DNA of 43,978 bases from Candidatus Gastranaerophilales bacterium. Its GTDB lineage: Bacteria; Cyanobacteriota; Vampirovibrionia; Gastranaerophilales; Gastranaerophilaceae. A model generated the notes under the pieces. The model saw only the letters and a list, made by a program, of their open reading frames with translations. It made no database searches and was not told the origin of the DNA. How positions within the stretch are numbered: the first letter of the stretch is position 1; the number at the start of each line of letters is the position of its first letter. The position numbers and the translations under genes are program-made. Below, one piece after another: positions 4,354 through 41,584 of the stretch. The stretch lies in assembly GCA_947588745.1 (NCBI GenBank), contig CANPYW010000016.1:1-43978 (forward strand). The letters are read 5' to 3'.

Positions 4354-5829
4354 GTGGAAAAAACATCATCAAAACTAAGATATATCTATATATTTGTTTT
4401 ATTTTTAATTTTTGTTTATGCTATATATTTAAGAATAGCCAGAAATATAGATTTGAGGCCTCTTTGGCTTGATGAAGCTCCTATTGCATTGACGGTAATT
4501 AAAAATAACATATTTAACATGTTGTTTAATATTGAAGATAGTCAAAAAGCACCGCTTATGTTTTGGATAGGCATTAAGTTATCCGGTATTTGTTTCGGTT
4601 ATAAAGAAATTGCACTTAGAATAGTTCCGTTAATAAGTTCCATTTTGTCTGTCTTTGTATTTTATATTTTTTCCAAAAAATTCATAAAAAATAAAATTTC
4701 TTTATTGATTGCAAATTTCCTGTTTGCAATTAATTATCAATTAATATATTATTCGCAAGAGCTAAAGCAGTATTCAGGTGATGTGTTATTATTTATGGTT
4801 GCCTTATTATATTTTTCGTATATGGCTGATAAGCCTTTAGATAAGAAGAATTTAGAATATTTGATTGCGGTTGGAATTTTCCTTTTATTATCTTCTTTTC
4901 CGGCTTGCTTTGTTTTAGCTGCATACTTAATTTATAAGTTATTTCATCTTAATAAAGAAGAAACAAAAAATATTCTGTTTTATATATTCTTTATAAGTTT
5001 GATTTCAGTAATTTATTATTATAGTTTTTTAGCACAGTTGTATACAAACGAAATATTAACACATCTAAATTATTGGAGAATGGGCTTTTTAAATTATCAT
5101 AACAGTATTTTTGATGTGTTTAAAAATGCATATTACTATAATTTTATTCCAAGTGAAAATTATAGGTTGGGTTTAATTTTGTTTTTCGCAGGTTTTATTA
5201 TGACTGCAAAAGAAAAAAATTCGATAAATCGTATATTGATAATATCGTTGTTTATAGCTGTTGCAGCTTCGTTTTTAGGACTGTATCCATTATATAAAAG
5301 AATTCAAATATATTTAATTCCGGTATTTATAATTTTTATATTGAAGGTGTGTGATATAAAAAAAATTAAACAACAGTATTTGCTTGTACTTTTTTCGATA
5401 ATATTGCTTAATTTTGCACCAATATTAAATTTAAAATATATGGAACAAATAAATTCAAAAGATGTTTTTGAAAAATGGAATGGAAGAGAAACTTTAAAAG
5501 TTATACAAGATAATTTCAAAGATGGCGATACTTTATTGGTAAATTATCAATCTAAAAGCCAATATGAATATTATTCAAAATATTTGAATTTTAATCCTGA
5601 AAATATTATAATTTACGATTTTAGTAATAAAACGAAAGATGAATTTTTTGATTACTTGAATAACTTGGAGAACAATAAAGACTATTGGTTTTTAAACATA
5701 ATAACTTCATTTGATAATCAGGAAAGAGATTATTTGATAGATTGGAAATCTAATACGAAAAATGTAATAACAAAATACGAATATATAATACGTAGATCTT
5801 ACGTAGTGAAAATAGAAAAAAAGTGTTGA
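4354..5829 (+). CDS. GT-C fold membrane glycosyltransferase (GT39/ArnT-like)
   Basis: 491 aa with GTG start; AGGA lies ~11 bases upstream. The first helix spans residues ~9-27. The loop after it carries RPLWLDEAPIAL, the acidic D-E motif characteristic of GT-C enzymes (PMT/ArnT/GT39) that use polyprenyl-phosphate sugars. About ten further hydrophobic helices follow, then a ~120-residue soluble C-terminal domain outside the membrane. Known chemistry of the fold is transfer of a sugar from a lipid-phosphate donor to a lipid, glycan or protein on the periplasmic side; the actual substrate is unknown. It is the third gene of the YhcH-TPR-GT unit. A diverged paralogue, frameshifted, lies at 35488-37076 and shares the motif LYP-x(3)-RI in the last membrane region. 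Confidence 0.8.
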   Translation: MEKTSSKLRYIYIFVLFLIFVYAIYLRIARNIDLRPLWLDEAPIALTVIKNNIFNMLFNIEDSQKAPLMFWIGIKLSGICFGYKEIALRIVPLISSILSVFVFYIFSKKFIKNKISLLIANFLFAINYQLIYYSQELKQYSGDVLLFMVALLYFSYMADKPLDKKNLEYLIAVGIFLLLSSFPACFVLAAYLIYKLFHLNKEETKNILFYIFFISLISVIYYYSFLAQLYTNEILTHLNYWRMGFLNYHNSIFDVFKNAYYYNFIPSENYRLGLILFFAGFIMTAKEKNSINRILIISLFIAVAASFLGLYPLYKRIQIYLIPVFIIFILKVCDIKKIKQQYLLVLFSIILLNFAPILNLKYMEQINSKDVFEKWNGRETLKVIQDNFKDGDTLLVNYQSKSQYEYYSKYLNFNPENIIIYDFSNKTKDEFFDYLNNLENNKDYWFLNIITSFDNQERDYLIDWKSNTKNVITKYEYIIRRSYVVKIEKKC

Positions 5830-35487: not shown

Positions 35488-37076
35488 TTAATTGGTTTTT
35501 ATAAATTTATAATAATCATAGAATAAGCTGTTAAAATGTTCGGATGGTTCTTTAATTGTTTCTTCTTTGTAACCCAAGGAAATAAGTTTTGCTATAACAA
35601 TATCTTTATTTTCAAGAGTAAGGTTTATGAATAATATTTTATCTTTTCCTTTTAGAGCTTGTGAAATATCAATATTATCTATAATTTCTTTATTGTTTTT
35701 ACTTATATAACTTACTAAAAAATTATTATTTGCAATATCATTTATACCAAAAACTACCTTGTTATAATGGTTACAGTATGCACAAGGAATATTCCACGTT
35801 ATTATGATTGTATTTTTATTATCTACAAATTCATCTAATTGCTTTTTTCTTTCTATAGTGTCTATAGACATAATTTTATTAGTAATTAAAGGGAATAATA
35901 CATTAATTTTTTTAATATAAAGAAAAAATGAAACAGTTAATACAATAATCATTAAAATATTTGTAATACCTATAAGTCGGTTCTTTCCGCAATAATCAAA
36001 AATTTTAAATATAATTATCATTATAGATGGAACAAGAAATAATATTATTCGATTGCAAAACGGATAAATACCTAAATACGATAGTATTAAGAAGAAATAT
36101 ACAGGTACAATCAAAAATAAACCAACAAAATTTAGTGATAATTTTTCTTTATCCCCCCCCCATTGTAATTTTTAAATTTTATACAAACTAAAAAACTTCC
36201 TATCAAAAATAATATTAAAATTGATAATAAAATGCTATTGGGAAGCATAGAAACAATAAATTTATCTGAAAATTGATATTCAAAAAAGATAAAATGTATA
36301 ATTGAATTTAAAGCTTTAAAAGAAGTCGGAGCAAAATAATATAAATCCGATAACCATTGTGTTTTTAATCCGTCATCTGTTTTCATTTGTATAATATAAC
36401 TAAAATAATTAATCAAAATAAAGATGATTGTGAAAATTTGAAAAATAATTATTTTGAAAAAATTCTCTAAATTTTTATATATAATATTTTTTAATAACAG
36501 TAAAAATGAAAATATTTCTATAGTTACAATTGCTGGAAGTGAAGAATATACCATTATTAAAGATATAAAAATATACAAAATTAGTTTTTTTAAATTAATT
36601 TTATTTATACTGTTGCTAAATACTAAGTTTAATAATAACAGCATACATAATAAATCATATGAATATGGTTTTATATAGTGAGAAAAGTATATATAACTAT
36701 AATTAAAACAATACAATACAACACAAAAAATAATAAGTAATTTATTTTTATAAACTTTTTCAAGTAATTTAAAAAACAAGAAAAAGGATATGAATTCTGC
36801 AATCAAAGAAAAAATTTTGTAAATAGGGAAGTTTAATCCCCATATTTTATAGATAAATTTAATTAAACATCTGTATAAAGGTAAAAAATTTGTTCCTTGT
36901 ATAAATTTGAAAAAAATATCATGATATGAAACAAAAGAACCATACAGACTATGACATTCATCTCCGATAATACAGTATCCGTTGTTTATAAGAGAAAGAA
37001 TTCTGAATGTAAATCCGATAATAAACAGTATTGTTATAACAAAATAGTATAAATTAAATTTATAAGTTTTTATCAT
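35488..37076 (-). pseudogene. GT-C glycosyltransferase, split at a G9 tract (probably phase-variable OFF)
   Basis: Two open pieces belong to one gene: 37076-36132 (314 aa, ATG start, ending ...NYNGGGIKKNYH) and 36114-35488. The break lies at nine C (36153-36161; G9 on the coding strand). With ten G (or seven) the frame reads through as NGGGDKEKLSLNFVGLF...VPVYFF, giving a ~530-aa protein. It has a GT-C acidic motif (IGDECHSL) after helix 1, ~11 membrane helices, an IYPFCNRI motif shared with the 4354 glycosyltransferase (LYPLYKRI), and a soluble C-terminal domain. In this state the product is truncated. Family role is transfer of a sugar from a polyprenyl-phosphate donor at the cell surface. 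Confidence 0.75.
36153..36161 (-). repeat. Homopolymeric C9/G9 tract (contingency locus)
   Basis: Nine consecutive C on the plus strand within a ~25% GC coding region, exactly where the frame breaks. It is the only G or C run this long noticed in the window. Confidence 0.85.
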
Positions 37077-40981: not shown

Positions 40982-41548
40982 TTAAATTTTATCTTCTAAT
41001 TCTTTTATTTTTTTTGCTGGAACTCCTGCAACAACACAATTATCGGGTATATCTTTGTTCACAAGAGAACCTGCACCTATTACGACGTTATTTCCTATTG
41101 TTACTCCGTATAGTACAACAACGTTCCCTCCAAACCATACATTATTTCCTACTTTAATAGGTTTTGCATATTCAAGACCTTTATTTCTTGTTTTATAATC
41201 TAAAGGGTGAAAAGCCGTATAAAAAGCACAATTTGGGCCAATAAAAACATTATCGCCAAATGTTATTTTTGCACAGTCCAAAATTGTAAGATTATGGTTT
41301 GAATAAAAATTTTCACCTATTTCGATATTATAACCGTAATCACAAATAAAAGGCTGTTCTATTAAAAACTGATTTTGTGTTTTCCCGAGTATTTGTTTTA
41401 TTAAATTGTTTCTTTCTGTCGTTTTTTCCGGGGATATATTGTTATACTGATAGCATAATTTTTTACAATTAATTCTTTCTTGAATTAATAACTTGTCGTT
41501 ATTTGCATCATATAATTCGCCATTAAGCATTTTTTCTTTTTCACTCAT
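40982..41548 (-). CDS. Maa/NodL/LacA-type sugar O-acetyltransferase
   Basis: 188 aa from ATG 41548 (MSEKEKMLNGELYDAND-like start); an ATG two codons earlier is also possible. The left-handed beta-helix hexapeptide family is clear: FICDYGYNIEIGENFYSNH, LTILDCAKITFGDNVFIGP, catalytic His in YTAFHPLD, then VGNNVWFGGNVVVLYGV, IGAGSLVNKDIPDN and AGVPAKKIK. It transfers acetyl from acetyl-CoA to a sugar hydroxyl. It sits directly downstream of the LarE-like gene and between two SGNH genes, fitting acetylation of a surface sugar or its precursor. Confidence 0.9.
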   Translation of the reverse strand: MSEKEKMLNGELYDANNDKLLIQERINCKKLCYQYNNISPEKTTERNNLIKQILGKTQNQFLIEQPFICDYGYNIEIGENFYSNHNLTILDCAKITFGDNVFIGPNCAFYTAFHPLDYKTRNKGLEYAKPIKVGNNVWFGGNVVVLYGVTIGNNVVIGAGSLVNKDIPDNCVVAGVPAKKIKELEDKI

Positions 41549-41584
41549 TATCATAGTCTTTCTGCCTGTTGATATTAAATTTTG

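Follow-up and report, generated by a model that had tools for sequence, protein, structure and literature searches.

A G/C homopolymer tract splitting a membrane protein gene in a Gastranaerophilales bacterium: a probable phase-variation locus within a genome-wide tract set

The window, a stretch of 43,978 bases with a GC content of 29.7%, is contig 16 of the host genome (G000; 1,998,657 bases in 63 contigs) of a Candidatus Gastranaerophilales bacterium. A gene for a membrane protein of about 530 residues lies on the minus strand and is split into two parts (Table 1). The first open reading frame runs up to a tract of nine G residues on the coding strand and meets a stop six codons past it; 3' of the tract, the second part is open in a different frame, and the change of frame coincides exactly with the tract. 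The initial annotation had reported nine C residues here, at the frame change of a protein of about 530 residues, and had calculated that one added G or two removed would rejoin the halves; position, size and frame arithmetic are all borne out by the reading of the ORFs. The tract is the sole C or G run of at least eight bases within the window, and dinucleotide shuffles of the window gave a mean of 0.11 8-mer matches. A chance origin of the run is rejected by these shuffles together with the Markov expectation given below for the whole genome.

Table 1. Features of the split gene and of its intact homolog in the window
Feature	Position	Strand	Evidence
Homopolymer tract, C9 on the plus strand and G9 on the coding strand, proposed slippage switch	36153-36161	-	Run scan; G10 in the L036 ortholog
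N-terminal part, 305 codons, membrane protein, probable GT-C glycosyltransferase, DECHS motif	36162-37076	-	Homologs; dN/dS 0.24
C-terminal part, 220 stop-free codons plus stop, other frame, conserved IYPFxNRxxxFLIP stretch as in intact homologs	35488-36150	-	Alignment; dN/dS 0.35
Intact distant homolog (L005) of the split gene, 491 aa, sub-threshold PMT_2 match, without tract	4354-5829	+	Homolog and Pfam comparison

A search of 363 family genomes gave matches to the split gene at E ≤ 1e-40 in eight, one of them the host. Within the genus, seven homologs are uninterrupted ORFs of 505-527 aa and one more is truncated by a contig end; in the alignment they match both window pieces in order. The tract position corresponds to a short loop of variable length between two conserved parts, and a strongly conserved stretch of the family falls in the part 3' of the tract. 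Neither window piece of the split gene matched Pfam or NCBIfam, and all ten proteins compared with NCBIfam were without a match. Below the cut-off, PMT_2 appeared in two of 12 alignment rows, L040 and the window homolog L005, with a best E of 4e-5. The homolog profile had no match among solved structures at E ≤ 1, and the structure model of the N-terminal part (mean pLDDT 44.6) was too poor for fold comparison. The DECHS motif near the N-terminus is presumably consistent with a GT-C enzyme. The GT-C part of the original label is weak, drawing on the sub-threshold PMT_2 matches of two homologs; the product is probably a glycosyltransferase of the GT-C type.

The neighboring genes had also been proposed as candidates for surface modification. 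Their annotations (UvrC, an AAA ATPase, a radical SAM protein and others) are mostly non-surface, and a surface gene cluster around the split gene is unsupported by them. A hexapeptide acetyltransferase is located at 40982-41554, about 4 kb from the split gene.

The sole close ortholog among the 363 family genomes is found in G029 (stretch L036), a genome of the same genus as the host; the remaining matches, apart from the host's own, are at most 43% identical. Identity to this ortholog is 76%; taken by halves, it is 75% over the first and 66% over the second. A comparison of tract length in related genomes, which the initial annotation had put forward, gives for this one ortholog a G10 at the equivalent place against the G9 of the host. 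The G029 gene is likewise split, with an offset of opposite sign, and the bases flanking the tract differ between the two genomes. Among 11 window ORFs compared with 10.9 kb of L036, only the two parts of the split gene match, and in L036 the ortholog is flanked by epimerase-like and acyltransferase-like ORFs (named by eye). Because the ortholog is non-syntenic, the tract has stayed with the gene. For this single species pair, with each part in its own frame, dN/dS is 0.24 before the tract (bootstrap 0.18-0.34) and 0.35 after it (95% bootstrap 0.23-0.55), values that point to purifying selection on both halves.

A pseudogene, in which a frameshift at a mutation-prone run has left the gene to decay, would agree with both known copies being OFF, no in-frame copy of the ortholog occurring among the 363 family genomes searched, and with the rarity of a gene whose close ortholog exists in one other genome of 363. 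Furthermore, a recently dead gene might give comparable dN/dS ratios. Decay is opposed by the second half, which is free of stops in both the host and G029 and keeps its dN/dS below an upper bound of 0.55, by the retention of the tract while the flanking bases and the genomic context changed, and by 28 other runs of at least eight bases in G000. Opposite registers at the two breaks, with the homopolymer preserved, are better explained by an ever-changing tract length than by a recently dead gene, and the pseudogene is a quite improbable explanation of the split.

Across G000, 29 C or G runs of at least eight bases are present, including 13 of length 10, 12 of length 9 and four of length 8, with none longer; 67 8-mer matches were counted, and one run is of exactly seven. 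The 25 runs of at least nine compare with 0.10-0.63 expected under Markov models of order 1-4 trained on the window minus its own tract. On reading the sequence, 22 of the 29 tracts fall within an ORF of at least 200 aa or at its 5' end; the two on C6 and on C61 slightly precede the first start. Of the 29, 14 are in genes whose Pfam match exceeds the cut-off, mainly for polysaccharide or surface families. These genes include TupA-like ATP-grasp proteins (4), polysaccharide pyruvyl transferases (4), a cytidylyltransferase-epimerase-glycerophosphotransferase fusion with two tracts in the one gene, and one each of an AlgX-like protein, a PMP-repeat protein, a prepilin-like protein with an N-methylation motif and a methyltransferase. 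Seven of the 22 genic tracts, the split gene aside, lie in genes without a Pfam family above the cut-off in the pieces scanned, some being adhesin-like by eye. By count, many tracts of the set, though not all, belong to polysaccharide or surface genes.

The other seven of the 29 tracts are outside real genes. In C8, C12:32693 and C39 (L054:3538-3547, L059:3494-3503 and L065:2279-2287), G9 or G10 runs are embedded in intergenic low-complexity text, and reading of the flanks found no obvious gene or promoter role. On C31 (L063:3446-3518), three C9 runs occur within 73 bp of GA-rich, repeat-like text. A tRNA-Ala gene lies to one side of them and a DUF520 gene to the other, and the mechanical ORF that contains the runs extends into the tRNA. 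At G000:C1:10974-10983 (L050:3475-3484), a C10 is positioned between TTGACA and TATAAT, which are 15 bases apart, upstream of a 975-aa ORF that is adhesin-like by eye and without a Pfam match. The Neisseria porA gene is reportedly switched by a poly-G run in its promoter, and the C1 tract resembles that arrangement; the likeness concerns this companion tract, whereas the tract of the probable glycosyltransferase gene is a coding one.

G029 has a similar set of 34 runs: 18 of length 9, 10 of length 10, four of length 8 and two of length 11. G prevails over C, with 24 against 7 of 31 tracts. In a Pfam scan that covered all but a few pieces, the tract genes comprise GT2, acyltransferase, rhamnan synthesis, AlgX-like, TupA-like, pyruvyl transferase and PMP-repeat genes, together with several radical-SAM genes and kinase-like and GNAT genes. 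Three G029 tracts are located 9 nt upstream of a TATAAT (L070:748-756, L070:3547-3556 and L084:3003-3011), and two promoter-like sites share 60-bp stretches of 88% identity, with G9 in one and G10 in the other.

Registers were tallied for tracts flanked on either side by 120 or more open nt. In G000, six are in frame, one is at +1 and three are at +2 (n = 10, including the spurious L063:3510, which adjoins the tRNA-Ala gene and is no real split gene); in G029, 10 are in frame, three are at +1 and three at +2 (n = 16, the L077, L086 and L087 rows having short 3' parts and being doubtful). All three registers are present, which random switching predicts and a fixed recoding rule does not.

Within the genus, 36 of 41 genomes contain at least one run of nine, with dozens of matches in some, and five (G021, G006, G001, G018 and G060) contain none; the tract system thus seems to be gained and lost among members of the genus. 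Poly-C of over 20 bases, with 32 where a contig starts, and long stacked C runs were seen in G013:C108 and G019:C60. These are probably sequencing artefacts, so that the tract counts of both genomes are unsafe and were excluded as evidence. Homopolymers are error-prone in sequencing, and such artefact-like runs in relatives lend something to the reading that the split is an assembly or sequencing error, the true tract being in frame in essentially all cells. This reading is contradicted by the separately assembled ortholog, which is also out of frame at another length, and by the confinement of G000 tract lengths to 8-10; it is the least probable of the explanations weighed here. If the length was miscalled because the population is mixed, such a mixture is phase variation itself.

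At the level of the class, runs of exactly 10 occur in 180 of 289 genomes and are richest in the window's family. In genus g18 of that family, 21 of 22 genomes among those listed carry them, the highest count in one genome being 169, against at most 12 outside the family. Stretches of two genomes from sister genera, G128 (L123-L132) and G146 (L133-L142), were chosen for runs of exactly 10 and are thus biased to that length: among runs of at least six, the 195 kb of G128 hold 20 of length 10 and three of 11, and the 200 kb of G146 hold 34 of length 10, one of 6 and one of 8. Most of these runs are flanked by C. Prepilin-like N-termini with an upstream tract account for 13 of 21 in G128 and 19 of 30 in G146, mostly with the tract 21-33 nt past the ATG. 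Measured against the nearest ATG only, 16 of 17 classified tracts in G128 and 22 of 24 in G146 place the gene at a single out-of-frame offset; for a few tracts, an in-frame start exists. Stretches chosen irrespective of tracts are less uniform. G095 has four tracts, all of length 10 and in all three frames; G133 has three, of which the one classified is of length 11 and in frame; and G136 has two of length 10 and one of 13.

It is possible, as a tentative reading, that the extreme G/C-run surface variability of the family exists in two regimes: the genus of the host, with mixed-frame tracts of 8-11 that would form a very large phasome, and sister genera with near-fixed G10 prepilin leaders, in some genomes mostly at one out-of-frame offset. 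If true, the second regime would mean either a stock of silent pilin genes, any of which a single slip could bring to expression, or a recoding signal on G10 used across the genome.

Long G runs can slip, and programmed frameshifting or polymerase slippage could yield some full-length enzyme without any change in the DNA. The single offset that predominates among the classified 5' tracts of G128 and G146 is the observation in its favor, as a fixed recoding rule would account for it. Opposed to it are the offsets spread across all three frames in G000, G029 and the sister genome G095, and the host and G029 copies of the gene, which need corrections of opposite sign. For the split gene, programmed frameshifting was rejected on these opposite offsets, which do not follow a fixed one, and it is a highly improbable source of the full-length protein.

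Taken from sequence comparison, the locus is very probably a poly-G/C simple-sequence contingency (phase-variation) locus, seen in the window in its OFF state. The phase variation by tract slippage that was first suggested for it is supported by the sister tract of other length and register, by the purifying selection and by the 28 other runs. Slipped-strand mispairing at replication would lengthen or shorten the intragenic G/C tract. In ON daughter cells, the two halves would be joined into the membrane glycosyltransferase of about 530 aa; in OFF cells, translation would stop soon after the tract and the conserved second half would be lost. Extra glycines, if few, should be harmless, since the loop that holds the tract varies in length. 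Meanwhile, the tracts across the genome, coding ones and at least one in a promoter-like spacer, should vary surface glycans and adhesins from cell to cell. We infer slippage within populations, inactivity of the enzyme when OFF, its substrate and a benefit against phages or host immunity.

Lost mismatch repair is the background of such loci in Campylobacter and Helicobacter. In the host, MutS1 and MutL genes were found over the cut-off and are open over 903 and 604 codons, respectively, the TAA reported within the MutS1 match lying at its end. Among 41 genomes of the genus, the cut-off is exceeded by MutS1 in 39 and by MutL in 37. Because both host genes are present and open, lost mismatch repair is ruled out as the background here, and their presence questions the need for a mismatch-repair-free lineage in such loci.

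Several known systems resemble this locus. In Campylobacter, slipped-strand mispairing at poly-G/C tracts is established and tract lengths peak at 9 (53%) and 10 (26%) (PMC6321876); its phasome, like the present set, has G/C runs within ORFs and some outside, with lengths of about 9-10 and mixed ON and OFF states. Unlike Campylobacter, the host is a non-photosynthetic relative of cyanobacteria with MutS1 and MutL. The sortase-dependent pili of Bifidobacterium breve (PMC9187656) are likewise a surface structure of a gut commensal subject to slippage at an intragenic G-tract. There, pilus clusters are concerned and slippage was measured, whereas here a probable glycosyltransferase gene belongs to a much larger tract set and slippage is deduced. 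The Akkermansia capsule locus cps1 also switches a surface polysaccharide of a gut commensal randomly on and off, but by DNA inversion of an invertible element and not by tract slippage (PMC13343947). For the present lineage, a single-cell genome from a termite gut is reported to have two genes split by frameshifts (PMC5877343); the passages on them name no homopolymer, and the case was left out of the evidence. No report of phase variation in Gastranaerophilales or Melainabacteria was found in the open-licence PMC literature; the mechanism is known, and the lineage and the scale appear unreported.

Most known cases of homopolymer phase variation come from mucosal pathogens, with a few from commensals. 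Gastranaerophilales are common but little-studied gut bacteria, and with a large poly-G/C set individual cells would carry different surfaces, which bears on resistance to phages, recognition by the immune system and the comparison of strains. In that case, "broken" surface genes in assembled Gastranaerophilales genomes should not be taken as lost.

Tracts are also found in paired and tandem gene copies. Two G000 genes (L056:3188-3456 and L067:5047-5315) have in common a 269-bp 5' segment, 99.3% identical, whose 3' end reaches into the tract, a C8 in the out-of-frame copy and a C9 in the in-frame one. The two diverge immediately 3' of the tract, with partial similarity resuming some 1 kb later, as though the tract served as a joint or a portable switch. 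Tract-bearing paralogs of the split gene also occur in G026 (L044, L047, L096 and L099); several stand in tandem, their C9 or C10 is at a different site, and one of them is out of frame.
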